Shown: positions 3,120 to 38,016 of the stretch, one piece after another
How positions within the stretch are numbered: position 1 is the first letter of the stretch
Layout of the letters: the number at the start of each line of letters is the position of its first letter
From: a virus
IMG/VR virus record: IMGVR_UViG_3300037070_004142
Coordinates: 1-40,743 of that record
Strand: one strand, 5' to 3'
Length of the DNA: 40,743 bases
Position numbers and translations under genes: made by a program
The notes under the pieces: model-generated
What the model was told of the DNA's origin: nothing
Database searches by the model: none
What the model saw: the letters and a program-made list of their open reading frames with translations, nothing else

Positions 3120-4629
3120 AAACCCCATTTTTGATAGAATCCGGCAGGATGGTTTCATGGGTGGCACTCAGGACAAGTTGCGGGCGTCCATGAACTCGAC
3201 CTTTGCGAACCTGCGCGGAGGCACAGGGGCTCAGACTGATTTCGGTGAACAAAACAGAATGGCAAATGCGGGGGTTTACGAGCCGGGCTCTTTTGGGGCT
3301 CAAAATGCCGTGGCAAACGGGACCGGGGTTGTTGGGACGGCTGAACAGTTCAGGACGGGAACTGTTCCGGTTATGCAATCTGGAATTGACAACACCCCGC
3401 TCCCAACCGGCCGCGAAGGACTCAACGCCGCCACGGGAAATATTCTAGGTTCTGGTCTTAGTCGGGGTGCGGCTTCGGGCGTTTCTGGGCTCCCCGTGGC
3501 AACTCAAGTTGCGGGGGTACTTTCTGGCATGGAGGACACCGGGAAAGTCGCCGCATATCAGCAGCGATTGATGGAATCGGGGATTAATCTGAACGCTGAA
3601 AACCAAGCCCCGGGAGACTATCAAAGGAACCTCGTGGCGGCGCGTGGCATTTATGATAACGTCTTTGGCGCAGGATTGCCCGCAGGCGCTACGGGAGGCC
3701 CGACCACATCCTACGCCCCCACTGGATTTAGAGACCGCGTAATGCAGGCTAATGGTGGCCTAGTGTATGGGCAGGGGAACGTCATGGGCGCAACGGATGG
3801 GAAAAACGCGGCGGGCGGGAATCGGTTCTTTTTGGGCCAAGTCACCCCGATGGGTGCCAATGGACAGGCACCCGCTCCCCCGCCTAATCCGATCATGGAT
3901 GAAAGGTCGGCCCCCTTGGGTTCGACGGCGAAAGCCCCATCCGCTTACGACCAGAACGCCCAAGCCTTCAAGAATCACCAAGTCACCCAGCAAATGCAGG
4001 CCGGGCTTTTGAAAGCCCTTCCCCCCGGTTACATGCTGGACCCGGACAAGCCTAACGCGATTAAGCCTATTCCGGGCGGTCCGGCTGAACAGAAAGCTGC
4101 CGATGACAAACGGGCCTCTGATGAATCGGTTCGCGCCACTCACGAAGCCGCCCGGCAGTCCGTGGAAAAGGCCAACATCACCACAAAGACGATTAACAAG
4201 ATTCTCCCCCAGTTAAACAGCATGACAACAGGGGTTGCGGCGGCCCTGACTGAAGCGGTTCCTGGAACCCCTGCTTACAATGTGGGGAAACTGAAGGATA
4301 CGGTCGTTGCGAATATCGGCCTGAAAGAACTGAAGGCCATGAAGGAGGCCAGCAAAACGGGTGCCTCTGGCATGGGTGCGCTTTCTGAAAAAGAGTTGGC
4401 CGTGCTCGAAACCTCCCTTGGTAATTTGAAACTGGCCCAGAAAACCGATCAGGTAGCGAAGGCCATGAAGGATGTTCGCAATTCCTTTTATCGCTGGCGC
4501 TCCACCTACAACGCAGGGCAGTTGGGCGAAACGCCCGAAGCCATGCAAAGGCAGTTGGCAGTTAAGTGGGCATTGGAACACGACAACGACCCCCGAGCTG
4601 AACAGATTCTTGCGATGGACGAAAAATAA
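3106..4629 (+). CDS. Putative internal virion / DNA ejection protein
   Basis: The 507-residue product has a Gly/Ala/Asn-rich, low-complexity first half and a charged, helical second half (about residues 320-507) with Glu/Lys/Ala-rich stretches likely to form coiled coils. No enzymatic motif was recognised. With the next gene it forms the two-gene block between small structural proteins and the tail fibre where P22-like and T7-like phages often carry internal or ejection proteins. That role is inferred from size, composition and position. Confidence 0.6.
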   Translation: MATTKNPIFDRIRQDGFMGGTQDKLRASMNSTFANLRGGTGAQTDFGEQNRMANAGVYEPGSFGAQNAVANGTGVVGTAEQFRTGTVPVMQSGIDNTPLPTGREGLNAATGNILGSGLSRGAASGVSGLPVATQVAGVLSGMEDTGKVAAYQQRLMESGINLNAENQAPGDYQRNLVAARGIYDNVFGAGLPAGATGGPTTSYAPTGFRDRVMQANGGLVYGQGNVMGATDGKNAAGGNRFFLGQVTPMGANGQAPAPPPNPIMDERSAPLGSTAKAPSAYDQNAQAFKNHQVTQQMQAGLLKALPPGYMLDPDKPNAIKPIPGGPAEQKAADDKRASDESVRATHEAARQSVEKANITTKTINKILPQLNSMTTGVAAALTEAVPGTPAYNVGKLKDTVVANIGLKELKAMKEASKTGASGMGALSEKELAVLETSLGNLKLAQKTDQVAKAMKDVRNSFYRWRSTYNAGQLGETPEAMQRQLAVKWALEHDNDPRAEQILAMDEK

Positions 4630-16892: not shown

Positions 16893-17132
16893 TTATTCTT
16901 TGAAGTTAGTGCGGAACGGGCGCATGGCCCGCCCCTCGGATTTCTTTTCAGCGTCGATAGCCGCGAGTCTGTTAATATCCTCGGGCGTGAGGGTGTTCTC
17001 CGGCAAGCCACGCATGGCCTCCTCATACTCTCTCTGCCATTGTAGCGCAGCGGCGTGCTGCCTTGCCATGTCCACGGCGAAGGAGGCAAAGGGGGACTGG
17101 AAGGGCGGGGAGAGGGGGCGCGGCACGTTCAT
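16893..17132 (-). CDS. Small helical hypothetical protein
   Basis: The 79-residue product starts with a Pro-rich segment and continues with charged helices (ARQHAAALQWQREYEEAMRG; TPEDINRLAAIDAEKKSEGR). No motif recognised. It is coupled to the upstream gene by an ATGA overlap. Function unknown. Confidence 0.55.
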   Translation of the reverse strand: MNVPRPLSPPFQSPFASFAVDMARQHAAALQWQREYEEAMRGLPENTLTPEDINRLAAIDAEKKSEGRAMRPFRTNFKE

Positions 17133-17536
17133 TGGGTGGGGCGAATGGGGGCGAGCCGTTTAGCGAGGTGGTCGGTGAGGTCTTGGAGTGCTTTGCGCAG
17201 GGCCTTCGATTCATCGCCAAGATCAAATTCTATGTCCGAATAAGCGGTCGCCTCGATCACCACCTTCTCAGCGAGTTCCCCGAGGGCGTGCAGTTCTTCG
17301 CTCTGTTGGTGGATGGCCGTCGCGTGTGCCGCATGGCTATTCACCGCTTCCACGATAAGGTCCGCATTGGCGCGGTGTCGTTTAAGCGCCTCATCTTTGA
17401 TGGCGAAGATTGGGAAGTAACACACGATGTCCGCAATCTTACCGGAACCGTCACGGCGCAACGGCCCAACGTAGATCGTTTGCGTGGTTTCTTCGATGCC
17501 CCAAGGTGTCGGGGTGGATTGGATGGTAGTATTCAT
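17129..17536 (-). CDS. Hypothetical phage early protein
   Basis: The 135-residue product has a beta-rich N-terminal half (TIYVGPLRRDGSGKIADIVC) and a helical C-terminal half with HRANADLIVEAVNSH, a pattern common in short conserved proteins of phage early operons. The catalytic content is nil and the function unknown. It starts 6 bp after the ribbon-helix-helix-like gene at the head of this operon. Confidence 0.62.
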   Translation of the reverse strand: MNTTIQSTPTPWGIEETTQTIYVGPLRRDGSGKIADIVCYFPIFAIKDEALKRHRANADLIVEAVNSHAAHATAIHQQSEELHALGELAEKVVIEATAYSDIEFDLGDESKALRKALQDLTDHLAKRLAPIRPTQ

Positions 17537-17541
17537 GGTAG

Positions 17542-17739
17542 TTAGATACAGTCCCTCACCGGAGAGAAGCCGGACCTCCCCGCAAAAGCTACCAGCCTAT
17601 CCAGCAGTAGCCCTTGAGATACGCCCGACTTGCGCCAGAGGGAGAGCTGGCGGGAGGTTTGGGCGGAGATGCGGCAACTGTGGCGAACGCGATTCTCTCG
17701 GCCCTGCCTCGCGTTAAACTTGCGCTGTGCTTGCGTCAT
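17542..17739 (-). CDS. Ribbon-helix-helix-like small DNA-binding protein
   Basis: The 65-residue product is read from the ATG that gives a basic N-terminus (MTQAQRKFNARQGR). A strand-helix-helix pattern follows: VRHSCRIS, then AQTSRQLSLWRKSG, then VSQGLLLDRLVAFA, which fits the ribbon-helix-helix layout of small phage regulators. It is the first gene of the long minus-strand operon, next to the regulatory and structured RNA region, so autoregulation is plausible. An upstream ATG at 17784 would add 15 residues. Confidence 0.52.
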   Translation of the reverse strand: MTQAQRKFNARQGRENRVRHSCRISAQTSRQLSLWRKSGVSQGLLLDRLVAFAGRSGFSPVRDCI

Positions 17740-17829
17740 GGGGGTGAGCAAGTGGGAACCAAATCTGGTTTGCAAGACAAACAAGACCGGAACGCACGAC
17801 TCATTTTGTAACGGGCGCGAGTGGGTCTT

Positions 17830-17864
17830 TGCCCCATGCGGGATGGGGCATTTGTTTAAACAAA
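17830..17864 (+). promoter_or_regulatory. Terminator-like hairpin fused to a 14-bp palindrome
   Basis: An 8-bp stem (TGCCCCAT / ATGGGGCA, loop GCGGG) at 17830-17850 is followed directly by TTTGTTTAAACAAA, a perfect 14-bp palindrome at 17851-17864. Read on the plus strand, the hairpin plus TTTGTTT resembles an intrinsic terminator. The palindrome could be an operator for the regulator at 17542-17739 or another repressor. Both readings are compatible. Confidence 0.45.
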
Positions 17865-17882
17865 CAAGCTTGCGGCGGGGGC

Positions 17883-18821
17883 CAGGTTCGGCTTGATTCC
17901 TTGCCTAGTCCGCGAACATTCACTTGAAGCCCCGTTGAGAGAAATCTTGACGGGGTTTCTCGTTTCTGCCTTTTGGTATCCGAACCTGAATGTTCGCGTG
18001 AGGCTCCCGCAACGAGCCCGAATCCCGCTCCCCCTGAAACACGGTCCGGTTGCGGTAGGAATTTAGAACGGTGCGCGGCCTGCCCTACGGCAAGGCGAGC
18101 GCAGCGTTCAGAATGGTGGCCTAGCTTAACGGTGCCAGCCCTCACGGGCTCCAAAGGAAACCGGAAGCGCGCAAGCGTAGGTGATATTAAAGGCCGCGGG
18201 TGTAGAATCCCGCCTTGACCGGCTATTGGGAGCACAACCGCCATTCTGAATCCTGCCCTTGCCCACCAGCCGCGCTTAATTCCATGGTCGCACGGGCGGT
18301 GATGGCACGTTCTTCCCCTAGCATAGTGTGAACGGTTTCGGGTTGCTGGATGATCCGGCCCGGTTACCCGTCGAAAGACGAGTGCGCTGCGACATTAATC
18401 GCGGAGGGTCGGGTTTGACTCCCGAGGGGAAAGACGTGCCCTTGCTCCCGTGCGAGTGAGGTGCCGTAGCTTTGGAGAGGGGTGCTGTTGTAACGAACAT
18501 GCTGGGGCAAACACCTCCGCGCCCCGGGGATCGAACCCCGGTCACCCCTCTCCATCCCCTGAAATGACATGATGCCGTGGGGAACTCCAGAGCTACGGTT
18601 CAAAAGCATACGCGATAGTCCTCGGTGATGCTCCATCCAACCTCCCCAGCAATGGGTGAGGTGTCGCACCGCTCCTGAGCCTCAATGATAAACCACCCAA
18701 AGCCCCCTGACCGAGCGCGCCCGTAGGAAGCGGAGGACACCGCCCACCGGAGGACGGAGCTTGATTTCGCGGGAGGGGCGAATCAGGGATTGCGGTTCCA
18801 GGTTGAGATGCCTTTATCCCT
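17883..18821 (+). ncRNA. Candidate large structured noncoding RNA
   Basis: No convincing protein gene lies between 17740 and 18848. Instead there are many inverted repeats: 12 bp at 17911/17987; 11 bp capped by GAAA at 17930/17945; 13 bp at 18107/18238; 16 positions with one mismatch at 18304/18425; 11 bp at 18463/18589 and 11 bp at 18474/18543; a bulged hairpin at 18641-18661; and 6 bp at 18785/18816. Small hairpins inside carry GNRA loops on the plus strand only (GAAA at 17941 and 18373, GCAA at 18171), which indicates the transcribed strand. Several domains are of similar size (144, 137 and 137 nt). Large ornate phage RNAs such as GOLLD and ROOL are the nearest known concept. Exact ends and family are unknown. 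Confidence 0.6.
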
Positions 18822-18848
18822 AGTGCGCCCCAGTAAGGCGTTTCAAAC

Positions 18849-19085
18849 ATGAGTAAGCCAATGCGTGCCAAGATGAGTATCCAGTCCGTTACGCGGACGG
18901 GGTATTCCGAAATCGTGGAGATGAGTGCGGTCTATGGCGGTTCGACTAACAACGAGGACAACTCGTTTTCCAAGTCCACCCCCAGCGGCAGCATCAAGCT
19001 CCAGATCGACAACAGGGAGCTGCACGGTGCCTACAACCCCGGTGACACGTTCTATGTGGACTTCACCCCGGTTCCGAAACCGTAA
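18849..19085 (+). CDS. Small conserved phage protein
   Basis: The 78-residue product (KMSIQSVTRTG near the start; STPSGSIKLQIDNRELHGAY and PGDTFYVDFTP later) matches the pattern of a short beta-rich hypothetical protein I recognise from many tailed phages. It has no known function. It follows the structured RNA region directly and is closed by a strong terminator, so RNA and gene may share one transcript. Confidence 0.75.
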   Translation: MSKPMRAKMSIQSVTRTGYSEIVEMSAVYGGSTNNEDNSFSKSTPSGSIKLQIDNRELHGAYNPGDTFYVDFTPVPKP

Positions 19086-19877: not shown

Positions 19878-20040
19878 AAAGGGGGGATGCCCTGGGGGCG
19901 AGCAAGCTGGAAACCGATTCGCCCTTCTTGAGCCTCACTACATACCTCTGATGCTTGGGGGGCTTCACGGAGTAGCGGGAGCGCTTTGGGGCGGGCGGGA
20001 TTGGGGAGAGTCCGGCTTCTTGCGGGGTGCGGTAGGTCAT
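19876..20040 (-). CDS. 54-residue basic protein
   Basis: A 54-codon frame starts in an ATGA overlap with the RNase H-like gene stop. The product is Pro- and Lys/Arg-rich (PPAPKRSRYSVKPPKHQRYV) and is probably flexible and nucleic-acid binding. An 83-codon frame in another phase overlaps it but has no coupling. The overlap with the upstream gene is the main evidence for this one. Confidence 0.5.
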   Translation of the reverse strand: MTYRTPQEAGLSPIPPAPKRSRYSVKPPKHQRYVVRLKKGESVSSLLAPRASPL

Positions 20041-20465
20041 GGCAACACCGTCTCCTCAACCCTTGCGAGCGCCCGCGCCATTTTCTCCGCCGCCGTCTTG
20101 TTTCGGCCCTTGAATGAGTGCCCGGCCGTCACGAGCCGCGTGTAGAGCGCATCGCGTGACGCGAAGTGGGCGATTTGGTGGAACGGGTCGTCCTTGTCCG
20201 CCAGCACGTCGTAGCCCTTCGCGCTCGCGCAGTCTGAAATAATCGTGTGAACGCCCGGCATCGTCGTGCGCGCAAACGCGATGGCCTGTGTCTCCATGCC
20301 GGTTGTGTCATCGGTGTCGGCAATGCAGACGCCCTGCTTCACGCCGAGGAGCCGCCCGTCGCTGGACTTCACCACGATGGCCCAGCCAAAGAACCGCACG
20401 GGCTCCGCGTGATCGTTGGTCGCCACCCAGCGGTTCACGAACGAGATGTCGGTGTATGCAATCAT
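20037..20465 (-). CDS. RNase H-like protein
   Basis: The 142-residue product follows the RNase HI plan: YTD at the N-terminus (Asp6), FFGWAIVV then GRLLGVKQGV (strands 2-3), ETQAIAFA (Glu58), IISDCASA (Asp78), and a C-terminal GHSFKGRN...AAEKMARAL like the handle and fourth acidic position (Glu127). The catalytic trio D-E-D is present. It could remove RNA from RNA-DNA hybrids or act on another nucleic acid. It lies in a short minus-strand operon divergent from the Cro-like regulator. Confidence 0.62.
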   Translation of the reverse strand: MIAYTDISFVNRWVATNDHAEPVRFFGWAIVVKSSDGRLLGVKQGVCIADTDDTTGMETQAIAFARTTMPGVHTIISDCASAKGYDVLADKDDPFHQIAHFASRDALYTRLVTAGHSFKGRNKTAAEKMARALARVEETVLP

Positions 20466-26452: not shown

Positions 26453-26634
26453 ACCAACCAAACCAAAATCCCCAACTGGCCCTCGTCAAAGACGCCCTCG
26501 CCCTCCTGCAATGTGACTGGCCCTCCAGGGTCAAACTCGTGGAGGCTGTCCAGTTCCTTGAGTCCGAGCTTCACGACCTGGAGGCCCTGAGATTCGCCCG
26601 CGATAACGCTAAGAAACCGACTTCAGAAACTTAA
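26449..26634 (+). CDS. Small helical hypothetical protein
   Basis: The 61-residue product is almost wholly helical (ALVKDALALLQCDWPSRVKL; VQFLESELHDLEALRFARDN). It overlaps the end of the converging methyltransferase gene by 26 bp. No motif recognised. Last gene of this plus-strand operon. Confidence 0.55.
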   Translation: MNQPNQNPQLALVKDALALLQCDWPSRVKLVEAVQFLESELHDLEALRFARDNAKKPTSET

Positions 26635-27229
26635 TCGTTCCCCTGTGCTGGGAGTATTCTTGGTGGGCGAACGGTTTAAATCCGCTTACCGCTAGTCCCT
26701 CCGTTAGCATTTTAACGGCGGTGTCCGCGTGGTATTCCAGCATGATTGCCTGGGGTCTTTTCAGCCGTCCGCATCGGGAGAGCCTAGATAAAATCATGGG
26801 TTCCGCCCCCTCAGTATCCACTTTTATAACGTCGGCGTCTGGAAGTTCTGCCGCATCTATGCAGTTTACGTCAACTGGCTGCCCGGTTGTGGTTGCGATC
26901 TTGGCCAGCGACCACTCGCCGCAGTTAAATCCGTTCATGTGAATCTGTCCCGGCCCGGTGCTATTCGACACAGCCAGATTATACACGAAAACATCCCTCA
27001 ACTCGAAATCAGTAACCGTGCGGCAAAGGAGCGCATGATTCGCGGGGTGGGGTTCGTAGGAATGGATTTTGGAATCGGGCCAGCGGTTTTTCGCCCACCG
27101 CGCAAAAGCCCCGACGTTCGCCCCAATGTCCAGAATCACGGGAGCGCCCTCAAAAGGAACCTCGTATTCTCCACGGAGGACGCTTTCGCAATGGTCTTGG
27201 TTCAGGCCGTAATCAAGGGGCCAGTTCAT
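26609..27229 (-). CDS. FkbM family methyltransferase
   Basis: The 206-residue product shows class I SAM methyltransferase motifs: DIGANVGAF (residues 34-42, motif I), SYEPHP (about 57-62, FkbM family acidic end of strand 2) and IKVDTEGAE (135-143), a hallmark of the FkbM family. Family members O-methylate sugars or other hydroxyls. It is the last gene of the sugar module and probably caps the transferred heptose or another glycan residue. Substrate is inferred from context only. Confidence 0.82.
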   Translation of the reverse strand: MNWPLDYGLNQDHCESVLRGEYEVPFEGAPVILDIGANVGAFARWAKNRWPDSKIHSYEPHPANHALLCRTVTDFELRDVFVYNLAVSNSTGPGQIHMNGFNCGEWSLAKIATTTGQPVDVNCIDAAELPDADVIKVDTEGAEPMILSRLSRCGRLKRPQAIMLEYHADTAVKMLTEGLAVSGFKPFAHQEYSQHRGTIKFLKSVS

Positions 27230-27933
27230 AGCGTGTAGCCTTCCGCGTCCTTCTTGAACATTTGCACGGTTTCAACGGAAAGTTCATTCAGGTCTTTCCC
27301 GGCCATTTCCCGGGCCTTTGACAGAATCGAATCGGGGACCGTGATAATTCGATAACCCAAGGCGTCCGCCTCACATATATTCCATACCTCTCTTGTCGAA
27401 GCCCACAGCGTTTCAACAAGCGGGCACGCCAGTAAAAATTCTCTGGCTGGCGAAAACTGACCCTCGGGGTGGCGACCTGTATCGGCGATGCGCCCATTAA
27501 AAAATGACAGGATACAAGACTTTGGTAGAATGTAGAACATCGCTCCAGCGATTTGTTTGTAACTCATAATCGCGGTCAGGTTAACCTTAACGTCCGCCTC
27601 CATCAAACGGCGAACGACGCCAAGGGATGAGTGGCCAACGCTGTTCACAATGGGAATTTTCACATACACGTTCTCCCCCCAACCGGAAATCTTGCGAGCC
27701 TGCCGCTCCATCTCCGCGAAGTCATCGGAGAACACTTCAAAGGAAATCGGCTTCTTGGTGACGTGCTTCAAAACCTCCTTTGCGAACGCCTCGTAATTTG
27801 TAATGCCAGCCTTACGCATAAGCGTGGGGTTCGTAGTAAGCCCCTTAATCAGCGGGTCGTCATTGAGGCGAATCATCGTCTCCAAGTCCGCCCCGTCCGC
27901 GAAAATCTTAATCCGTAGGTCTTCTAGTTTCAT
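27226..27933 (-). CDS. Transaldolase-like aldolase (TalC/FSA-like)
   Basis: The 235-residue product is close to the size of the short TalC or fructose-6-phosphate aldolase subfamily. Visible motifs are IFADGAD near residues 10-15, GLTTNPTL (31-38), and VYVKIP, with Lys92 as the Schiff-base lysine. A C-terminal GYRIITVPDSIL matches the family's last strands. Transaldolase exchanges three-carbon units and can make sedoheptulose 7-phosphate. Next to the phosphoheptose isomerase gene, it would feed heptose synthesis. It has an ATGA overlap with the methyltransferase gene. Confidence 0.82.
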   Translation of the reverse strand: MKLEDLRIKIFADGADLETMIRLNDDPLIKGLTTNPTLMRKAGITNYEAFAKEVLKHVTKKPISFEVFSDDFAEMERQARKISGWGENVYVKIPIVNSVGHSSLGVVRRLMEADVKVNLTAIMSYKQIAGAMFYILPKSCILSFFNGRIADTGRHPEGQFSPAREFLLACPLVETLWASTREVWNICEADALGYRIITVPDSILSKAREMAGKDLNELSVETVQMFKKDAEGYTL

Positions 27934-28496
27934 TTGAGTAGTGGGTGGTTCACCATGAGGTGAAAAATAACGACTTGGTATCCCTCGGTGTGCGGGGTGA
28001 TATGGGCGTCGTTCACAATCGGGATTAGGACCGTCGCATCGGCGTGCTGGCGGGTAAATCCCCCATCCCGCCCGACAATCCCGATGACGGACGCGCCCAT
28101 TTCATTGGCATACTGGACCGCCAAAACGAGATTGGGGCTCACGTTCTTTTCCAAGTTCCCCCCGCCCACGGAAAGAACCATGACGCAATCCCGCTCGCTC
28201 AAACGCGATCCGGCCAGCCATTGCTTGAAAATCGTCTCCCAGCCTACGTCATTGGTCTGGGCTGTCAGTTCCGCCACGTTGTCAGTCGGGGCATACGCTT
28301 GGATGTTACAGATTTTACGGAAGTCGTTCACGGCATGGGAGGCGTTCGCCGCCGACCCCCCCACCCCGAGAATGAACAACCGCCCCCCGACCGTCTTTAG
28401 CTTGTGGAGAATGGCAATGAACTCGTCCACTTCCACGGGGTTAATCTTGTTTGCGACCACCATAGTCTCGTAAAGGTATTGTTGGGTATGGCTCAT
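27930..28496 (-). CDS. gmhA: Phosphoheptose isomerase-like SIS protein
   Basis: The 188-residue product has the GmhA/SIS layout: GVGGSAANASH (residues 44-54), an SVGGGN phosphate loop (109-114) and ITPHTEGYQVVIFHL (166-180). Family enzymes convert sedoheptulose 7-phosphate to D-glycero-D-manno-heptose 7-phosphate and bind zinc through His61, Glu65, Gln172 and His180 in E. coli GmhA. The aligned residues are His54, Asp58, Glu171 and His179, so two metal-site residues differ conservatively. Start is fixed by an ATGA overlap. The function is likely but not proved. Confidence 0.78.
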   Translation of the reverse strand: MSHTQQYLYETMVVANKINPVEVDEFIAILHKLKTVGGRLFILGVGGSAANASHAVNDFRKICNIQAYAPTDNVAELTAQTNDVGWETIFKQWLAGSRLSERDCVMVLSVGGGNLEKNVSPNLVLAVQYANEMGASVIGIVGRDGGFTRQHADATVLIPIVNDAHITPHTEGYQVVIFHLMVNHPLLK

Positions 28497-28822
28497 TTCG
28501 GGGGCGTTTTGAAAACGAGGGAGCGCATGTCTTCCAAGTGCTTTTGTGTGGCCGCGAGACTCCCCGCGCTGCCGGTGCCTTCCGATGGGCGAATCCCGCA
28601 ATTCCAAAGCTCGTCCATGAAGGATTGGGCCGAGTCCTTGTTTAGGGAGAAGGCAACGGGCGTCTCCACGCCTTCATCTTCTGGCCGTTGTTCTATAAAT
28701 TGGACAGGCTGTGCAATCGCCCATCGGCTATTATCGGAATATCTGGTTCCAATGCGGACGCCAAATGAGTCTCCCCACATAACGTCCCGATTGATAAATA
28801 TCTTTAGGTTTTGGTGTCTCAT
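28493..28822 (-). CDS. Conserved phage protein inside sugar module
   Basis: The 109-residue product contains YRD-type beta segments at the start, then FMDELWNCGIRPSEG and TGSAGSLAATQKHLEDMR at the C-terminal half, a pattern I recognise from short conserved proteins of many tailed phages. It has no sugar-enzyme motif. It is translationally coupled on both sides to heptose genes, so the module is an integral part of this phage genome. Function unknown. Confidence 0.7.
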   Translation of the reverse strand: MRHQNLKIFINRDVMWGDSFGVRIGTRYSDNSRWAIAQPVQFIEQRPEDEGVETPVAFSLNKDSAQSFMDELWNCGIRPSEGTGSAGSLAATQKHLEDMRSLVFKTPPK

Positions 28823-29403
28823 TTTAAAAGATTCCTGACTTCCTCCAGTCCGGCGGGCGAACCGATTTCCATAAAGCGGTTTGGCATTTCGTATACGGAA
28901 ACCATGCCGTGCGCCTCCAGATGCAGGGAAAGCTCTTTTAGGTCGGGTTCATCACCCATGAACGCCTCTTTCTTAAAAAGGTTCAGGCCGTAGTATTCCC
29001 CGTCGTGGGTCGTTACGCACCCAAGCAAGTCTTCCGCCCGATGGCGTTCAAGAATAAGGTTGGGGTCGCACTCCAAGTAGGAATCCCCGTAAATGGTGAA
29101 GAACTCCGGGCCAAGCAATGGGAGCGCATTACGAATCGTGCCAGCGGTCCCGAGCGGTTCCGCCTCAAAGGAGAAGTGAACACCCGCTTCCGCTGCTCCA
29201 TATTTTCCAGCCAAGTGTCCCACGCACAGCACAAATTCACGGAATCCCTGTTTTCTCAGCAACGCTAGTTGCCAGTGAAGGAAAGGCCGCCCGTTTATAT
29301 CAACCAGTCCTTTTGGTGTGTGCGCGGTAAGTTCGCCCAGCCGCGTGCCGAGCCCACCGCAGATAATCGCCACGGGAATCTCAGAGAGTGCGCGTGCCTT
29401 CAT
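28819..29403 (-). CDS. hddC: HddC-like nucleotidyltransferase
   Basis: The 194-residue product begins with the nucleotidyltransferase signature GGLGTRLGELTAHTPKGL (residues 16-33), followed by GRPFLHWQL and later a YGDSYLE segment with the metal-binding Asp. The family transfers NMP from GTP or another NTP to a sugar 1-phosphate; HddC makes GDP-heptose from heptose 1-phosphate. It is somewhat shorter than usual members. It overlaps the kinase gene by 23 bp. HddC identity is inferred from the neighbouring heptose genes. Confidence 0.75.
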   Translation of the reverse strand: MKARALSEIPVAIICGGLGTRLGELTAHTPKGLVDINGRPFLHWQLALLRKQGFREFVLCVGHLAGKYGAAEAGVHFSFEAEPLGTAGTIRNALPLLGPEFFTIYGDSYLECDPNLILERHRAEDLLGCVTTHDGEYYGLNLFKKEAFMGDEPDLKELSLHLEAHGMVSVYEMPNRFMEIGSPAGLEEVRNLLK

Positions 29404-30349
29404 AGTCGAATGAAAACCGAACCTCTTTTAGTCCCGCCTTCGCCATTGCCTCCCTTAAATCGCGCTTGGACTCGCACAGGAACAGGAGGAACCCCCCGCC
29501 GCCAGCCCCGATGAGTTTCCCGCCAAGTGCCCCGTTCATAATAGCCAGATTATACCACTCGTTAATCTTCTCGTTACTCATGGCCCCCGAGCGTTTCTGT
29601 TTATAGTTCCAATGTTCGTCCATGATGGACGCGAGAAGTTCTAGATTCCCGTTTTCAATTGCACCCGCCGACCGAAATCCAAGGTCTTTCACATGATGCA
29701 GGTTGGCCGTAATCGCGCTGTCATCCTTCTTGGATTTGTCGTCCTGATCCTTGAGAATCTTGGAGGCGGATCGACTGTAACCCGTGAAGAAGAGAAGTAG
29801 GTTTTCCGTCAGGGCGTCCCGGGTGGTCTGGCTCATAGGGAGTGGCCAAATCTCCGTTGATTGCCCGAACTTCATGCAGGACACCCCGCCCACCGCAGAA
29901 ATATATTGGTCCTGTTTTCCGATAGGCTCCGCGAGTCGTCCCAATTCAATCGAACATGCTTCCTCGGCTAGTTGCTGCGGGGAGATAATGTCATGCTTGA
30001 ACGTGTGCAGGGCTTTCAGAAGGGCGCAGGTAAAAGAAGATGAGGAGCCCAGTCCCGTCCCTGCTGGAATGTCCGCCATGCATGAAACCTCCAATCCCCG
30101 ACCATCCAATTTCAATAGGTCGAAACACTCGCGGATAATCGGGTGTTCAAGGTCCGATGCGCGTTTGACCTTTTCCATTTCAGAATACTTAACAATCAAC
30201 TTGTCGGAAAAGTTCTCGTTAATCGCCACATAGACATACTTGTTGATCGCCCCCGCGATGCAGAAGCCGCCGTGCTTTTCGTAATAGCTGGGCAAGTCGG
30301 TTCCCCCGCCGCCCAAGGTGATTCTAAGCGGTGAGCGAACGGTAATCAT
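29381..30349 (-). CDS. hddA: HddA-like GHMP sugar kinase
   Basis: The 322-residue product has the three GHMP motifs: N-terminal RSPLRITLGGGGTDLPSYY (residues 5-23), the ATP loop AGTGLGSSSSF (about 96-106) and the C-terminal KLIGAGGGGFLLF (about 278-290). D-glycero-D-manno-heptose kinases of this family have the GGGGTDLP-type start. It would phosphorylate heptose 7-phosphate at C1. Codons upstream of the chosen ATG overlap the SDR gene and are not needed. Confidence 0.8.
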   Translation of the reverse strand: MITVRSPLRITLGGGGTDLPSYYEKHGGFCIAGAINKYVYVAINENFSDKLIVKYSEMEKVKRASDLEHPIIRECFDLLKLDGRGLEVSCMADIPAGTGLGSSSSFTCALLKALHTFKHDIISPQQLAEEACSIELGRLAEPIGKQDQYISAVGGVSCMKFGQSTEIWPLPMSQTTRDALTENLLLFFTGYSRSASKILKDQDDKSKKDDSAITANLHHVKDLGFRSAGAIENGNLELLASIMDEHWNYKQKRSGAMSNEKINEWYNLAIMNGALGGKLIGAGGGGFLLFLCESKRDLREAMAKAGLKEVRFSFDYEGTRTL

Positions 30350-31031
30350 GGTGGATAGAAATGAGTTTTCCGGTGATGCCGTTGGATTCTTGGGAGGCCA
30401 GCCACACCGCCAAGTCACAAGCCTTCTTGAAATCGGGAGGCGTTTCCTTGACCAATTGGGCGTGACGGTAAGCGGCTACCCCTGCCTTCTCCGGTCCCGC
30501 TGAAATAACCGCGTCGTGAATTGAGGTGTTGAGCGCCCCTGGGGCCAAGCAGTTCACATCAATGTTCCACGGCTTCAGTTCCTCGGACAAGCACTCCATG
30601 AAGCGAAGGACGGCGGCCTTGCTGGTGGCATAGGCGGAAAAGTTTGGGCGTGCCTTGGTCGCCCCGCCCCCCGAAATAATAATAATCTTCCCTGATTTCC
30701 GTTCCTTCATCTGGGGGAGAAATTCATGGCAGCAGTTCACGACGCCCATCAGGTTGGTTTCAATAGTGTCCCGCCATTGCTCAATCGCGTTCGTTTCAAA
30801 CGGTCCCACTGGGCCATAGATGCCAGCATTGCACACCAGCACATCGGTTTTATACGCGGCGAACGCCCACGGCTTCACTAAATCCCGAACGTCCATGCGA
30901 TACACGCCCAGCGAATAGGCACGGGCTGTGGCGGTAACGTGCGCCCCGTCATCAATGAAGCGTTGCGAGATTGCGCGGCCCAGCCCGCGACTCGCCCCCG
31001 TAACGTGAATTTCAACGTCCTTTAGCTTCAT
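30324..31031 (-). CDS. Short-chain dehydrogenase/reductase
   Basis: The 235-residue product has a classical SDR fold: TGASRGLG cofactor loop (residues 11-18), NAG (68-70), catalytic Ser120 in ISGGG, and YATSK with Tyr134 and Lys138. It is a full-length member and should use NAD(P). Its substrate is unknown. In this module it may reduce or oxidise the nucleotide sugar. It overlaps both neighbours in the sugar module. Confidence 0.82.
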   Translation of the reverse strand: MKLKDVEIHVTGASRGLGRAISQRFIDDGAHVTATARAYSLGVYRMDVRDLVKPWAFAAYKTDVLVCNAGIYGPVGPFETNAIEQWRDTIETNLMGVVNCCHEFLPQMKERKSGKIIIISGGGATKARPNFSAYATSKAAVLRFMECLSEELKPWNIDVNCLAPGALNTSIHDAVISAGPEKAGVAAYRHAQLVKETPPDFKKACDLAVWLASQESNGITGKLISIHHDYRSLTA

Positions 31032-31653
31032 CGTTGCTCCTTTTTGCGGCTGAAATAAGCGGGGTTTCGTGGATGGAAAGCAGGTTGTTAATCTCCCGTT
31101 CGAGGTGCGATCCGTATGGGAGCCCCGCATCCAGATACGCCCTCATCCCGATTCTAGGGTCGGTCCTGAGCGCGTGGGTGACGTGGTTCATATCCGCCCC
31201 CGTCTTTTTGCACAGCTCCCCCAGCTCGTTAGCATAGGCCACAGACAGGGCCAGAAACCCATTCAGGGCGTGTTTCACCATTTCCGCCGTCTCGATACTC
31301 GTATAAAGCAGATTGTCCGTAAAGGGGACGAAAAGGGCATCCAGCCTAGGGTCTGGTTTCCTCACCCCGCAGATAATACGGTCTTGATTCAAGAAGTCCT
31401 GTTCAGCGTGGGCCAGCCGGACGTTTTCAGGAGAGTAGGCAAAAGTCAGGTGCGGATACGTCTGCTCAAACCGCTTCATCGTCCCGGGTGGAGCGGGCCA
31501 CGAAATAACGATTATTGCGGCTTCCAGTTGCCAAAAAGGAACATCGCTACACACCCAGAGAACGTCCGCATCCCCCCTATATGGGAAATGCCTGCCGCAC
31601 GCTTTCCGCGTTGCCTCTGCCAACGGTCCTTCGCCAACGACAAGGACGTTCAT
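31012..31653 (-). CDS. Truncated UDP-glucose/GDP-mannose dehydrogenase-like protein lacking the catalytic Cys
   Basis: The 213-residue product aligns with the N-terminal and central domains of UDP-glucose dehydrogenases: VLVVGEG (3-9), a YSPENVRLAHA segment (73-83) and ETAEMVKHALNGFLALSVAY (121-140) with DPRIGM near 165. The usual catalytic GFGGSC-type loop is replaced by GLPYGSHLERE (177-187), so the nucleophilic Cys is absent, and the C-terminal domain is missing. The normal protein is about 400 residues. It may be an altered enzyme, a partner protein or a decaying gene. Start overlaps the upstream stop (ATGA). Confidence 0.7.
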   Translation of the reverse strand: MNVLVVGEGPLAEATRKACGRHFPYRGDADVLWVCSDVPFWQLEAAIIVISWPAPPGTMKRFEQTYPHLTFAYSPENVRLAHAEQDFLNQDRIICGVRKPDPRLDALFVPFTDNLLYTSIETAEMVKHALNGFLALSVAYANELGELCKKTGADMNHVTHALRTDPRIGMRAYLDAGLPYGSHLEREINNLLSIHETPLISAAKRSNDEAKGR

Positions 31654-32531
31654 TTGAAAATCTCCGTGGGGAGAAGCATCCAAGCGACCGTGCGCTTCAA
31701 CGCTTCTTGAACGTCAACCTTCGGACGCCATTCCGTCGCGTAGAGTTTTCCTGGGTTCGGGTTTAAGTTGGGCGCATCGCCCACCCACCCGCGTCCTCCA
31801 CCAGAATAAGTAATCTTTGGCTTAAGCCCCATCACCTCGCAAATGATCTGTGCAGATTCCGAAACCGAAAGCGTGTCCCGCGAACAGAGATTATAGATTC
31901 CTGTTTTTCTCCTTTCGATCAGATGCAGCATGGCGTCTAGGCAGTCCTGAACATACAGGTAATTCTTTCGCTGGGTCCCATCGCCCAAAATCGTCAAGTG
32001 GTCGGGGTGTTCCCGTAGTTGATTAACGAAGTCGAACACATGACCGTGTTTGTAACCTTCACCGAGCAATGGAACGAAACGGAAGATATACGCCTCGAAT
32101 CCCTGCCCGGCTGCATACGCTTGGCAAAGGGCCTCCCCCGCCACCTTGGAGGCCCCGTAGAGGCTCGTTTGGGTAGGCCAAGGGCAATCCTCTTTCGGGT
32201 TGGGGGCGTCCCCGTAAACCGCAGAGGAAGACGCAAACCCGATTCGCTTGATGCCGTTCGCCCGCATCGCCTCCAAGACTTGCGAGGTTCCAACGGTGTT
32301 AACGGTCAGATCCCTTGTCGGATATTCCCATCCCCGTCGAACATCAGCATTAGCCGCCAGATGAAAAACGAAATCACACCCATCCATCATGCCTGAAAGA
32401 AATGATTCGTTCTCCAGTTTGTGGCCGTCTTGGGCGTCATAGCGCACATACGGAATGCCCATCAATTTTAGGCGCTTAATCAGGTTGTCCCCGACGAACC
32501 CCCGCGCCCCCGTTACAAACACTTTTTTCAT
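31650..32531 (-). CDS. NAD-dependent nucleotide-sugar epimerase/dehydratase
   Basis: The 293-residue product is an extended SDR with TGARGFVG (7-14), a DFVFHLAA segment (53-60), SSSAVYGDA (101-109) and catalytic YGASK (Tyr125, Lys129). The C-terminus has the substrate-binding features of UDP-glucose 4-epimerase relatives. It probably modifies the nucleotide heptose or a related sugar, exact reaction unknown. It has four-base overlaps with neighbours on both sides. Confidence 0.83.
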   Translation of the reverse strand: MKKVFVTGARGFVGDNLIKRLKLMGIPYVRYDAQDGHKLENESFLSGMMDGCDFVFHLAANADVRRGWEYPTRDLTVNTVGTSQVLEAMRANGIKRIGFASSSAVYGDAPNPKEDCPWPTQTSLYGASKVAGEALCQAYAAGQGFEAYIFRFVPLLGEGYKHGHVFDFVNQLREHPDHLTILGDGTQRKNYLYVQDCLDAMLHLIERRKTGIYNLCSRDTLSVSESAQIICEVMGLKPKITYSGGGRGWVGDAPNLNPNPGKLYATEWRPKVDVQEALKRTVAWMLLPTEIFK

Positions 32532-33445
32532 GGAATGTCCGTGTTAAGGAGAGGCATCAGTTTATCCACTAGGGCGATTACTTGCTCGGGATTCGCGTCG
32601 TTGTGCAGTCTCCACTGCTCTTTCAGGGCTTCGCAAATGTCCTCGTTTCTCACGGGGAGTTTGATGCTCGTGTCGTGGTTTATGATGAGGTTGTTGTCGA
32701 TAAACAGCTTTAGGCCGGACTCTCTGGCCATGCGGCAAAAGTTGTAATCCTCCCCGACCATCACGTTTTGCGAGTAGTCGGAGGCGTCCATTATTTCCTT
32801 GATGGCTTGATTGAGGGGAGCCCCACCCCACTCACCTGTTTTAGATTCAAAAGCAGCCTTAATCCGCGCCAACTTCCCCTCCGGGCTGTTCGGCCCCATG
32901 ATGCAGCTAGGGAAAAACTCATACATGTCAGGCCGCGCCTGCTTCATGGCCGTTTCCTTCAGGATGTATTTATGCTGGGGCTGCTTCTCCATGATTTGAA
33001 GAAGCGCCTTCACAGAGATAGACGAAAACCCAAGGGGAATTTGCGCCATTTCAAGCAGTCCGTCCTTCCGCAATTCTGGATTCTCAACCGTAGCCCCATG
33101 GAAACTAGAGAGGAAATTGTGCCCGCAATACTGGGCTCCAACAATGTCCACCTCATGCGACATGAGCCGGTAGAACATGGAAACGAAGATTTCAGCGTTG
33201 GCTGGCCCGAGGTCTATGTCCCAGAACACGAGCCGATCAAAGCGGCGCTTGATTGCCATGTGGGCGAGTTCGTCCCGCGCCCATGCAACCGAAGTGCCCG
33301 AGGTCATCGCCCAGTCTAATTCAAACGGCGCGTTCGGCCCCCCCGTTATTTTGTTCCCCCGAGAGAGCATCAGGGAGAACAGATTTTTGATGTAGCCGGG
33401 AGAACAACCCCCGCGCACAGGCGATGCGATTAAGACTCGTTGCAT
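32528..33445 (-). CDS. Putative GT-A-type glycosyltransferase
   Basis: The 305-residue product contains LVFWDIDLGPA (residues 72-82), with a DxD-type DID motif expected for metal-dependent GT-A transferases. It also has SVAWARDEL near 52-60 and a C-terminal VGEDYNFCRMARE segment. This layout fits a family of phage and viral glycosyltransferases. It is the first gene of the minus-strand sugar operon and should transfer the activated sugar. No signal peptide or membrane segment is seen, so it probably acts in the cytoplasm. Confidence 0.72.
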   Translation of the reverse strand: MQRVLIASPVRGGCSPGYIKNLFSLMLSRGNKITGGPNAPFELDWAMTSGTSVAWARDELAHMAIKRRFDRLVFWDIDLGPANAEIFVSMFYRLMSHEVDIVGAQYCGHNFLSSFHGATVENPELRKDGLLEMAQIPLGFSSISVKALLQIMEKQPQHKYILKETAMKQARPDMYEFFPSCIMGPNSPEGKLARIKAAFESKTGEWGGAPLNQAIKEIMDASDYSQNVMVGEDYNFCRMARESGLKLFIDNNLIINHDTSIKLPVRNEDICEALKEQWRLHNDANPEQVIALVDKLMPLLNTDIP

Positions 33446-33534: not shown

Positions 33535-35217
33535 ATGGCTAGAGAACACCGCGCTTCCGAGTTTCAACCTGATTTCGGTCTGAATTGGCGTCCGGTCCTA
33601 ACCCGAGAGCAGGTTAAGGACTGGGACGCGGAACGACTCGCCAAATACATCGCCCTTCGCAAGCAGGTTGAAAAGGGAGCGATTGATAACCCCGTGGGGC
33701 AAGGGTGGAGCCTCCCAATGTGGGACAAGGTGCAAGTCAACTGGAAGAAATACCGAACGCATTGTATTCTCGGGGGCAATCGAAGTTCCAAGAGCATCTT
33801 CGCTGCCCGCATGGCGGTCTGGGCGGCGGCGACCATCCCCGAGAGCCAAATCCGAATGTATCACGTCAACTCGGAACGCTCGATTCAGGATCAACAGCAG
33901 ATGGTTTGGGACGCGCTTCCCCAAACCATAAAGAACCTGCCGACCAAGAAGGGCGCGAATCATTCCCTGCAATTCTCGCAAAAAAATGGCTTCACCGACT
34001 CCATTTGCATCCTCCCCCCGCTTCCCGGTTATCGGAAGGGCGGCTCTATTATCTTTGGCAACTATCGGCAGTTCCAGCAGGACGAACAGGTTGCGGAAGG
34101 GTTCAAGGCCCACGCGATTTTCTGCGACGAGGAGTGCCCGCAAAAGTTCTTTGAAACGCTCCTGTTCCGAACGATTGACTACGACGGGAAGATTTTCCTG
34201 ACGTTCACGACCCTCCAAGGGTGGACGCCTCTAATTCAGGACATTCTAGGAAAGACGAAGACGATGGAGAGCGCCCCCGCCCCGCTCTTGGGCGGCAGGC
34301 AGGTTCCGATCATCCAAGAGAGCCACAGCCGGAAAGAAACCTGCATCTACTATTTCCACACGGCAGCGAACCCTTTCATTGATTCCGAGGCGTTCCTTAA
34401 AACCCTAGCCAGCCGCCCCAAGGATGAGATTTTGGCCAGAGCCTACGGAATCCCAACGAAGTCAATTACCGGCGTTTTTCCGGGCTTCTCGCGTGAGTAT
34501 GCCCCCAATGGGAACGTGATGAAACACGAGGATTTGCCGTGGCTGAAACCGAGAAAGAAGGACAAAAAGGGGAAAGAGATTCCGTACAAGGTCACAAATT
34601 ACATGGCGATTGACCCAGCCGGTTCTAAAAACTGGTTTATGGTCTGGGTGGCGATTGACGCCTCGGGAACGTGGTTTGTCTATCGGGAGTGGCCGGACTA
34701 CGATGATTGGGCGCTTCCGGGAAACACCCCCGAGGGGAAACCTGGCCCAGCCCAGAAGGGCTCAAAGAAGGGAATCCGAGAATACGTCGAACTGATTAAG
34801 GGCATGGAGGGGGATGAGGAAATCTTTGAGAGGTTCGTGGACCCGCGCATGGGTGCGGCGGAAAAGCAGAGCGACGAAGGGGCGACCACCATCATTTCCG
34901 ACCTATCGGACGCTGGCCTTCCCGTGATTCCCGCCCCCGGCGTGGACATTGAAAACGGAATCCAGCTTATCAACAACTTGCTCGCATGGGACGAAAACAA
35001 GGAACGCGACAGCCTGAACGCCCCCAAGTTCTACGTCTCGGAGCGGTGCGTAAACGTCATTGCATGTATGCAGTCCTACACGGGTCAGGGCGGCCGGGGA
35101 GAAAACTTCAAAGACCCACCGGACTGCCTGCGTTATCTCGCCGTCTCCGACATTCAATTTATAGACCAAGCGAAGATTACCGACCATCAGGCATATGGCC
35201 GCACGGGGAGTTATTGA
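33535..35217 (+). CDS. terL: Terminase large subunit
   Basis: The 560-residue product is the DNA packaging motor. An N-terminal ATPase domain has a Walker A variant GGNRSSKS (about 80-87) and Walker B FCDEE (about 196-200). A C-terminal RNase H-like nuclease domain shows acidic sites IDPAG (about 359), VDPRMG (about 435) and DPPDC (about 526). It pairs with the portal encoded 41 bp downstream. The ATG has a GGA purine run nearby but no strong Shine-Dalgarno sequence. Confidence 0.93.
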   Translation: MAREHRASEFQPDFGLNWRPVLTREQVKDWDAERLAKYIALRKQVEKGAIDNPVGQGWSLPMWDKVQVNWKKYRTHCILGGNRSSKSIFAARMAVWAAATIPESQIRMYHVNSERSIQDQQQMVWDALPQTIKNLPTKKGANHSLQFSQKNGFTDSICILPPLPGYRKGGSIIFGNYRQFQQDEQVAEGFKAHAIFCDEECPQKFFETLLFRTIDYDGKIFLTFTTLQGWTPLIQDILGKTKTMESAPAPLLGGRQVPIIQESHSRKETCIYYFHTAANPFIDSEAFLKTLASRPKDEILARAYGIPTKSITGVFPGFSREYAPNGNVMKHEDLPWLKPRKKDKKGKEIPYKVTNYMAIDPAGSKNWFMVWVAIDASGTWFVYREWPDYDDWALPGNTPEGKPGPAQKGSKKGIREYVELIKGMEGDEEIFERFVDPRMGAAEKQSDEGATTIISDLSDAGLPVIPAPGVDIENGIQLINNLLAWDENKERDSLNAPKFYVSERCVNVIACMQSYTGQGGRGENFKDPPDCLRYLAVSDIQFIDQAKITDHQAYGRTGSY

Positions 35218-35258
35218 CACCGCCATAAGACGCGCTAATGCAACATTCATCCTAAAAC

Positions 35259-37436
35259 GTGTCGTCTTTCACCGCCAATAACTCAGTTTTGCCACGGGCT
35301 GACCTCCAGCTTGCCCCGGAAGGTGATAGCGGCCCCGACTTCCCGCAACTGAAGAAGTCTTTTGACGATTGCGTAACGAACCTCTCCCCGTATCGGACCC
35401 AAACGGCCCAAAATTATTCGACTCGTTACGCAATCTGGCCGGGGCAGTCAGCAGACGGAAAGAAACATTCCCGTGGGCCGCAGGGGACGCCTGACCCGGT
35501 GCCGTGGGATGGGGCGAGCGACCTACGGGTTTATCTGACGGACAACCTGATTAATGACAAGGTGGCGATGATTTTGGAGGCGATCAATAAAGCCTCCCTC
35601 GTGGCCCAGCCCGTCGAAGGGAACGACATTAAGCGGGCGAAGGAAGTAACGCTTTTCATGCGCTGGCTATTGGAGCAGATGCCGGACCTAGACCGGGAAA
35701 TGGAATTGCTTGCCCAGTATTTGCAGGAAAAGGGGGCCGCAATTGTCGGCCAATTCTGGGAGACGACGCAGGAAAAGACGCTTCAGGTTCTCAGACTCAC
35801 TGATTTCCAGCAGCAGTTCCCGGATGTGGACATGCTTCAGCTTTTGGAGTCGGGAGACGCGGACGACTATCTGAAATCCACCTTTGAGGAGATTTACGGG
35901 GTGTCCCGAGCGAAGGCCCAGAAGATGCTTCGTGAACTGACGAACACCGGAACAACGACTGTCGCTGTGGTTGGCCGCGAGAAGTCCTATCCGGTAATGC
36001 GGACATTCAACCTCGATACGGACGCCTTTATCCCGCCCGACACGACGGACATTGAAATGGCGACGGGGATTTATTTGGTGAAGTATTACACCCCCGAAAA
36101 GTTGCGCGGACTCGTGAACACGGACGGATGGGATAAGAGCTGGGTGGAGAACGCGATTGCCACCTGTAAGGGGAAAATGCTTTCGGTGACTCCGGCGGAA
36201 TACATGCAGCCGATGAGCCGCAGTTTCATCTACACCCAGCAGAGGTTCACGGATAAAATCGGCGTCGTATGGGCGTATCAGCGTTTGAGCGATGAGGAAG
36301 GGGTGCCTGGGGTTTACCTGACTATTTTCTCACCGGACCTTCCCCCGACCCAAGGCGGAACTGTTCAACAGGGCTTGAGCTACGGGCCACACAAGGGTTA
36401 CGCGAAGTTCTCCCTCTATGGGGACAGTGACGGGAAATATCCGTTTGTCCTCTATCGGCGCGAATATCTCAGCCGCAAGCTGCATGATTCCCGTGGTCTC
36501 CCCGAGCCGCTGAAGCCCCTTCAAGACACGATCAAGGCCCACAAGGACGGCAAGATTGACACGGCTAGTTACAACATCATGCCGACAATCTTCTACCCGA
36601 TTGGGCGGCCCTTGCTCAAGTGGGGTGCGGGTGCGCGTGTCCCTGAGCGTCGTCCGAATGAATACCACTACGGCGATCCAATCCCGTATGATGAGACGAC
36701 GGAAAGCAGCCTGCAAAGCCTCGTGAACGACGCTAGGGACTACGCGGGATTCGCCCCCTCGGATTCAGATGAACCGATTAACCCGGTTAAGAATCAGTCC
36801 GAGATAAACAAGATTTTCAAGGCGCTCGCCAAGTCGTGTCATCAGATTTGGAACCTCTACAAGAAGTTCGGCAACGAGACGGTCTATTTCCGCGTGACGG
36901 GTGTTCAGTCGGAGGAGGCAACGAAGTTTGATCGCGGCCCCGAGGATGAGGACTTCACTTTCGCCTTCCGTTACAATTTGCGTGACGGGGAATCCGATTT
37001 CTCGCTGGAGAAGATCAAGAGCATGATGGAACTGGCTGCCGCCATGGACCGCACGGGGGCCGTGGATTGGACGGAGTTCCTTCAGGTGGCGCTTGAGGCG
37101 CAAGACCCGAGCATTGCGGCCCGTGTGCTTCGCCCGGCTGAAGTTGGCACGGAGAAGGTAATCATGGAAGTGCAAGACGACCTAACGAAGCTTTGGGCGG
37201 GAATTGCGGTTAACGTGAAGCCGAACACGCCCCCGCAGATTGCGATTCAGACCCTCCAAAACTGGGCGCAGTCGCCGGATGTTGTGGCCCGTTATCAGTC
37301 CGACGAATCCTTCCGCGAGCGGGTGGACGTTTACACTCAACAGGTCGAAATGCTCGCTAAGCAGGCCGAGAACCGAGTGATAGGCCGTCTCGGTGCCCAG
37401 CAGCCGACCCCTGTTATCGGTCCCTCCGCAGTCTAA
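35259..37436 (+). CDS. Portal protein, P22-like
   Basis: The 725-residue product starts at GTG and has the length and composition of P22-type portals: an early PVPWDGASDLRVYLTDNLIN, a long central region with PEKLRGLVNTDGWDKSWV, and a Gln-rich helical C-terminus (YTQQVEMLAKQAENR). The portal forms the dodecameric DNA entry ring and docks the terminase. Position right after TerL supports the call. The next gene overlaps its stop (TAATG). Confidence 0.9.
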   Translation: MSSFTANNSVLPRADLQLAPEGDSGPDFPQLKKSFDDCVTNLSPYRTQTAQNYSTRYAIWPGQSADGKKHSRGPQGTPDPVPWDGASDLRVYLTDNLINDKVAMILEAINKASLVAQPVEGNDIKRAKEVTLFMRWLLEQMPDLDREMELLAQYLQEKGAAIVGQFWETTQEKTLQVLRLTDFQQQFPDVDMLQLLESGDADDYLKSTFEEIYGVSRAKAQKMLRELTNTGTTTVAVVGREKSYPVMRTFNLDTDAFIPPDTTDIEMATGIYLVKYYTPEKLRGLVNTDGWDKSWVENAIATCKGKMLSVTPAEYMQPMSRSFIYTQQRFTDKIGVVWAYQRLSDEEGVPGVYLTIFSPDLPPTQGGTVQQGLSYGPHKGYAKFSLYGDSDGKYPFVLYRREYLSRKLHDSRGLPEPLKPLQDTIKAHKDGKIDTASYNIMPTIFYPIGRPLLKWGAGARVPERRPNEYHYGDPIPYDETTESSLQSLVNDARDYAGFAPSDSDEPINPVKNQSEINKIFKALAKSCHQIWNLYKKFGNETVYFRVTGVQSEEATKFDRGPEDEDFTFAFRYNLRDGESDFSLEKIKSMMELAAAMDRTGAVDWTEFLQVALEAQDPSIAARVLRPAEVGTEKVIMEVQDDLTKLWAGIAVNVKPNTPPQIAIQTLQNWAQSPDVVARYQSDESFRERVDVYTQQVEMLAKQAENRVIGRLGAQQPTPVIGPSAV

Positions 37437-37639
37437 TGCCATTAGATTTTCAACCGTCCGTGTTTCCACTCCAATTCGAGGTTACGGTTTGGTGCGCGTG
37501 CGCGGAAAGATTGGACTACATAAAAACCGAATCCAAGAAAAGCTACTCAAAGGCGACATCTTGGGGAATTGCGATTCCTAAATGCACCTGCGGTAAGTGC
37601 GTGCCATTCGCCAAACCAGAACAATTACATGGCTCGTAA
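37436..37639 (+). CDS. Small Cys-containing protein
   Basis: The 67-residue product has a CAC near residue 20 and CTCGKC near 50, spaced as in a small zinc ribbon, with the Lys/Tyr-rich stretch between. It starts in a TAATG overlap with the portal and ends 11 bp inside the next gene. It may be a minor virion or regulatory protein. Function unknown. Confidence 0.55.
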   Translation: MPLDFQPSVFPLQFEVTVWCACAERLDYIKTESKKSYSKATSWGIAIPKCTCGKCVPFAKPEQLHGS

Positions 37640-37922: not shown

Positions 37923-38016
37923 GGTTTCTAATTGACTTACTGTCTTAGTATTAGTTTTGCTTCACACACTGAAGCATCCCGCTTCTGCTTTGTCCTCTTG
38001 GGGACGCAATAAATCC

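Follow-up and report, generated by a model that had tools for sequence, protein, structure and literature searches.

A candidate class of large structured phage RNA with a conserved core and variable arms

The DNA analysed here, referred to below as the window, is the whole of IMG/VR record IMGVR_UViG_3300037070_004142, a viral stretch of 40,743 bases. It carries a terminase-like ORF at position 33535 and a long ORF at 35259, here termed portal because of where it lies; a further ORF, at 39104, has matches among annotated major head proteins. On the minus strand, positions 26609-33445 hold a sugar-metabolism-like gene block, with transaldolase, FabG-like reductase and glycosyltransferase-like matches. 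The locus of interest is a gap at 17537-18860, with a minus-strand gene (17129-17536) on one side and a plus-strand ORF of 78 amino acids on the other. Scans found no relatives of the neighbouring proteins encoded at 17129-17536 and 20037-20465; for the 78-aa ORF, which matches phrog_6978, related sequences occur at 33 IMG/VR loci and in a small number of phages of Marinobacter and Microcystis.

An initial annotation of this DNA had described almost 1 kb without convincing genes, and that description was borne out. A coding scan of the window with a dicodon model left 17537-18860 empty, and the six ORFs in or touching the RNA region gave no Pfam match and no significant PHROG family, on which grounds the ORFs within it were rejected as genes. 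A BLAST comparison of the whole region with annotated phages and plasmids returned nothing of note.

The same annotation had claimed at least fifteen helices here. The four that it named are all present, namely 17911-17922/17987-17998, 18107-18119/18238-18250, 18474-18484/18543-18553 and 18304-18319/18425-18440, the last with one mismatch plus one G-U pair, and the small GNRA-capped hairpins (GAAA, GAAA and GCAA) exist as well. The total stands less firmly, as some helices lack support from homologues and several of the inner hairpins are single-sequence predictions. When stems of at least 11 bp are counted, with at most one G-U pair and a span of up to about 260, the 939-base region contains four. 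Forty dinucleotide shuffles average 0.43 and never exceed 2, and tiles of equal length elsewhere in the window contain zero to two, with four again in the tile over this region. The plus-strand fold of the region has a z of -3.5, and no shuffle out of 20 matches its stability. In a GC-corrected scan that combined the window with the related genome G039 (see below), the fold on the plus strand at 17851 stands out more than any other in the window, and in a fold scan with dinucleotide correction the region is still near the top among 35 sequences. Other strong-fold outliers, in loci L002-L004, L024 and L030, were judged by eye to be protein-coding.

The search for homologous RNAs led to four other phage genomes: G095 (IMGVR_UViG_3300050821_004109, 38 kb), G084 (IMGVR_UViG_3300036781_000262), G039 (IMGVR_UViG_3300020202_000133) and G088 (40.7 kb). 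G039 and G084 were reached via the terminase and the major head protein, the head protein being 90% identical to that of the window, and their RNAs occupy non-coding gaps in a part of the genome comparable to the window's. In G039 this is a structured non-coding region at 35110-35860 (z -6.3), and in G084 a well-defined fold of ~1.1 kb at about 36865-37990. The 5' domains of these two RNAs align with each other over 146 nt at 65% (E 4e-6, permissive scoring), and the window has 20 nt at the foot of arm 1 in common with G084 (95%). The region in G088 is shorter; a single segment of it is related to the RNA of G039, and an HNH-like gene comes next. G039 and G088 match the window weakly, through the terminator-like hairpin with its motif and through helix Pa; their link to it runs chiefly via G084. 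One further match in G039, at 24283, is coding and was dismissed as chance.

The remaining genome, G095, came from a scan of IMG/VR with the arm-base motif GGCAAGRGCMN{121,150}CKGCGCTCRCCT. The scan returned 13 stretches; besides G084, which appears twice, one has a real rod, and this is L417 in G095. The G095 RNA, which is the complement of L417 at about 3180-4130, folds with a z of -5.3 and carries B1, B2 and the arm 3 core in the same order as the window. The window terminase has no homologue in G095, and no gene of G095 matches the window at E<1e-3 (one 29% fragment reaches 0.001); its RNA is the one close homologue from an unrelated phage. Among bacterial genomes the core pattern matched once, in L422 (Streptomyces), at a site that is apparently coding, and this too was attributed to chance.

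The domains of the RNA follow one another in the order 5' domain, B1, arm 1, B2, arm 2, arm 3, further hairpins and 3' hairpin (Table 1). At the level of sequence, the core (B1, B2, Pa and the Pc loop) is nearly fixed between phages, and the arm ends vary in both length and content; arm 2, for example, is a 180-nt rod in the window, and a short hairpin stands in its place in G095. The terminator-like hairpin lies inside or before the RNA in each genome, at 35210 in G039, 36970 in G084 and 690 in G095. Two helices of arm 3, 18464-18477/18585-18598 and 18473-18484/18543-18554, share the sequence TGGAG and are partly mutually exclusive, and only the second of these (Pb) is supported by G095. The overlap may represent a switch, or it may have arisen by chance.

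Table 1. Features of the RNA locus, in window coordinates
Feature	Position	Strand	Evidence and remarks
Giant structured non-coding RNA	17868-18845 (approximate extent)	+	Fold z -3.5; homologues in G095, G084 and G039; no coding signal
5' domain	17909-18001; helix 17909-17922/17987-18001 around the terminator-like hairpin	+	Mean pair probability 0.94; folding -78.6 on the plus strand vs -58.5 on the minus strand
Terminator-like hairpin with U-rich tail	17926-17959	+	Same place in G039, G084 and G095
Motif TTCTGC(N)TTTTG after the hairpin	17964-17975	+	Once per genome in the window, G039 and G084
Core block B1 (ACGGTGCGCGGCCTGC...GCAAGGCGAGCGCAG)	18056-18104	+	89% identical to G095 across 37 nt (E 3.5e-8 within that genome); HMM
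Helix closing arm 1	18073-18079/18269-18275	+	Pair probability 0.98; identical in G095
Arm 1	18094-18263; rod 18094-18119/18238-18263 with CG/CC internal loop	+	Covariation, five arm copies
Core block B2 (CTGCYCTTGCCCACCMGCCGCGCTTAATTCC)	18253-18283	+	94% identical to G095 across 31 nt (E 1.2e-7 within that genome)
Arm 2	18282-18461; rod 18282-18319/18425-18461	+	Pair probability 0.91; single-sequence prediction, position homologous in G095
Arm 3	18463-18599	+	Comprises Pa, Pb and Pc; G095 comparison and RNAalifold
Pa (CCGTAGC/GCTACGG)	18463-18470/18592-18599	+	Same in G095
Pb	18473-18484/18543-18554	+	Pair changes relative to G095
Pc, with conserved 14-nt loop	18556-18561/18576-18582	+	Pair changes relative to G095
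Hairpin Pd	18605-18632	+	Partly conserved in G095
3' hairpin, immediately ahead of the following start codon	18804-18845	+	Pair probability 0.92
Downstream 78-aa ORF	18849-19085	+	phrog_6978 match, function unknown; outside the RNA

How far is the pairing itself maintained as the sequence changes? Between B1 and B2, the arm 1 rod is almost entirely rewritten in G095 with its pairing kept: 7 pairs are changed on both sides and 3 on one side, 2 are the same and 1 is unpaired. Three genomes supply five copies of the arm, in which 95.2% of cells pair and both sides have changed in 13 of 21 pairs. The observed covariation score is 0.68; shuffles score 0.23, none of 500 reaches the observed value, and the signal is lost when the alignment is slid by one column. 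Arms 1 and 2 of G084 entered this comparison as matches to the base motif, and arm 3 of G084 was taken from the fold. The G095 arm was picked by the base motif (columns 1-11 and 40-50) and by its rod among the 13 stretches, so that its complementarity was partly selected for. The identity of B1 and B2 lies outside the rod and played no part in the choice of G095, and it confirms the homology.

In arm 3, 4 of 7 Pb pairs and 1 of 4 Pc pairs are changed on both sides relative to G095, and none is broken. An RNAalifold consensus of the window and G095, computed on a trimmed alignment with the arm interiors removed, contains 50 pairs, of which 10 are changed on both sides and none is broken. Covariation in homologous phages, which the initial annotation had proposed as a check, is therefore found in the arm 1 rod, in arm 3 and in the window-G095 consensus, from a small sample of three genomes for arm 1 and two for the core. 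A covariance model of the arm rods was set aside for searching because natural arms carry long inserts. By these comparisons, the region holds a large RNA-like structure under selection, with exchangeable arms, that is common to at least two lineages sharing no proteins by the test used.

Several lines of evidence bear on the strand. Folding is better on the plus strand for the 5' domain (Table 1), for arm 2 (-88.4 vs -73.1), for the G084 RNA (-410 vs -360) and for the G039 RNA as well; for arms 1 and 3 of the window and for G095 the difference between strands is nil or small. In addition, the base pair at the foot of the arm is G-U in four of the five arm copies and G-C in the fifth, and a G-U pair kept at this position is evidence for a plus-strand RNA, since the other strand would have C-A. 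These results weigh against the view that the repeats act in DNA, forming a cruciform or hairpins at an origin of replication or a packaging site. Such an element would explain why a non-coding gap next to divergent genes has long inverted repeats, but we consider it very unlikely, given the G-U pair kept on the plus strand, the better folding of that strand in several domains, the conservation of loop and core sequences beyond pairing, and the occurrence of the structure in unrelated phages.

Does the RNA serve the gene that it precedes? Its end and the start codon of the 78-aa ORF are 3-4 nt apart, and a scan found no terminator between the two, which makes a cis-acting leader or antitermination element the main rival to an independent RNA. 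On this model an attenuator, antitermination or processing element would let transcription run through the terminator-like hairpin and control or stabilise the next gene. The presence of that hairpin, with its U-rich tail, ahead of the core in the window, G039, G084 and G095, together with the lack of a terminator before the next gene, keeps a cis-acting role alive, and the G095 RNA does lie upstream of a small ORF and structural genes. The identity of the next gene, however, points the other way: it is the 78-aa ORF in the window, RNase H in G084, an HNH-like gene in G039 and G088, and a 76-aa ORF in G095. In most of these genomes the RNA is followed by an unrelated gene, which fits an independent RNA and speaks against a gene-specific leader. 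Moreover, ~1 kb is far above the size of known leaders, and the outermost helices of the G084 RNA pair sequence 5' of the hairpin with sequence far to the 3' side, which the polymerase has yet to reach when the hairpin forms. The 78-aa gene also occurs in L002-L004, and L002, the one inspected, has no RNA ahead of it. Relatives of this gene gave no match to the RNA, and in L005 the gene adjoins a non-coding gap with a weak fold (z -1.6) that is not recognisably related. On balance, we find a leader function rather doubtful.

The arms of related RNAs can hold other structures. One arm of the G039 RNA contains a hammerhead-bearing module that is found in many phages, its pattern GGAGTNNNCNNNNNNGGGGAATAACTGNNNACC occurring in at least 120 stretches of IMG/VR (module loci L144:15300-15440, which is the G039 copy, L156-L161 and L162-L281). 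The module is ~130-150 nt long and consists of a conserved GGGGAATAACTG core with covarying flanking stems, in which a hammerhead-like core is usually inserted. The hammerhead core is defined by CUGANGA...GAAA with three stems, and by sequence it is present in G039. Among the matches listed, 85 of 107 distinct module copies have a hammerhead-like core upstream, 17 of the 107 are circularly permuted with the ATCTGGCCC half downstream, and 34 of the 107 have a tRNA within 1.5 kb. The sites are mostly intergenic or in tRNA clusters, in Arthrobacter, Mycobacterium, Enterobacter and Pectobacterium phages. A comparison of 12 module loci with Rfam gave no family but tRNA at threshold; one module copy came near the threshold of Hammerhead_1 (28.7 bits vs 34). 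Phage hammerheads have been described by Perreault et al. 2011 (PMC3088659). The module in the G039 copy suggests that RNAs of this kind are assembled from transferable domains.

A different cap is seen in G084, where a long arm (L304:17494-17613) ends in a cloverleaf-like fold with a T-arm-like hairpin, CGGAGTTCGAGCCTCCG; neither ARAGORN nor Rfam finds a tRNA in it. HNH or HNH-like genes lie directly 3' of structured RNA in G039 (35854-36327) and G088 (29648-30187, reverse complement), and one also follows a structured RNA directly in Arthrobacter phage Karkharias (L161, 2454-2798).

Could the window RNA then be a self-splicing intron, or a processed array of tRNAs and hammerheads? The G039 module, the HNH-like genes after the RNA in G039 and G088 and the T-arm-like hairpins in the arms would all be at home in such an element. 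However, group I and group II introns have no Rfam match in the window and no split gene was seen; indeed, the downstream ORF is complete in its own right in L002, and not an interrupted gene as expected around an intron. ARAGORN finds no tRNA in the window, the Rfam Hammerhead models have no match in the region, and the module pattern is absent from the window, which also led us to reject the module as the identity of the window RNA. An intron or processed array is thus improbable in the extreme.

The reading that we favour, and regard as probable, is that 17868-18845 on the plus strand encodes a large structured non-coding RNA with covarying arms on a nearly fixed core, which acts in trans as a scaffold or particle. 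It would be the first representative to be recognised of a so far undescribed class that is present in at least two unrelated phage lineages. The initial annotation had suggested an undescribed large phage RNA, and this gains support from the covariation in homologues and from the finding that no protein or Rfam family explains the region. The RNA would be transcribed on the plus strand during infection, either with the downstream transcript or processed from it, and by analogy with GOLLD and ROOL it may act in trans as a folded scaffold or particle. The core would hold the architecture and the arms would be exchangeable sites, as with the hammerhead module in the G039 arm. A more specific version, which we offer tentatively, is that the RNA is a hub whose interchangeable arms are sockets for RNA modules (the hammerhead in G039 and a possible tRNA-like fold in G084), spreading from phage to unrelated phage independently of their proteins and forming an RNA-only particle or scaffold.

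To our knowledge, only a handful of very large structured bacterial and phage RNAs are known. Two of them have recently been shown to form RNA-only cages: GOLLD is a 14-mer nanocage, often encoded near tRNA islands, and ROOL an octameric nanocage. A further, unrelated class of ~1 kb, in which a defined conserved core bears covarying arms and which has apparently spread horizontally among phages that are otherwise unrelated, would add an independent case for studying the role of giant phage RNAs, and B1, B2 and the arm motif provide probes for finding more members.

How does the RNA compare with catalogued classes? It has the general properties of a large structured phage RNA, being non-coding, several hundred nucleotides long and intergenic in a phage, with a structure supported by covariation (three genomes for arm 1, two for the core). 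In a search of Rfam 15, the window has no family at the gathering score, and at E<=10 it gives only weak unrelated matches, all outside 17868-18845; the GOLLD, ROOL, OLE, HEARO and group I/II intron models give no score even at E<=10. Neither GOLLD nor ROOL matches the regions of G039 and G084 at E<=10, where the matches listed are weak and unrelated, and G095 yields only small unrelated matches below threshold. The search for a known RNA family or protein that might explain the region, as the initial annotation had advised, thus came back empty for the window, G039, G084 and G095. Similar size, a phage setting and an ornate multi-arm architecture might suggest a divergent GOLLD, ROOL or other catalogued RNA, but with these search results we hold such an origin to be highly improbable. 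The class that we favour would be related in kind to GOLLD and ROOL and, as far as tested, not in ancestry.

Comparison with individual systems makes this clearer. The HNH-like genes that follow the RNA in G039 and G088 recall HEARO, the IscB omega RNA; unlike that system, the window RNA has no Rfam match and no HNH-like gene adjoining it, and the G039 and G088 proteins are 157-179 aa long with sub-threshold HNH matches only. Bacterial and phage hammerheads (PMC3088659) have a counterpart in the hammerhead-like core of the G039 arm, whereas the window copy lacks such a core. With ROOL, the window RNA differs in its length of ~1 kb as against 659 nt for the solved ROOL, in having no Rfam match and in lying outside any tRNA island; it resembles ROOL in being a large ornate RNA of phages and prophages with no known protein partner. 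Both GOLLD and ROOL, which phages encode and which exceed 600-800 nt, form RNA-only cages, and the GOLLD linker sometimes contains tRNAs (PMC12286853). The window RNA differs from GOLLD in its lack of an Rfam match and of tRNA neighbours, and is like it in being phage-encoded and over 800 nt long, with extensive structure, a conserved and a variable part, and the possible capacity to host other RNAs (PMC12286853).
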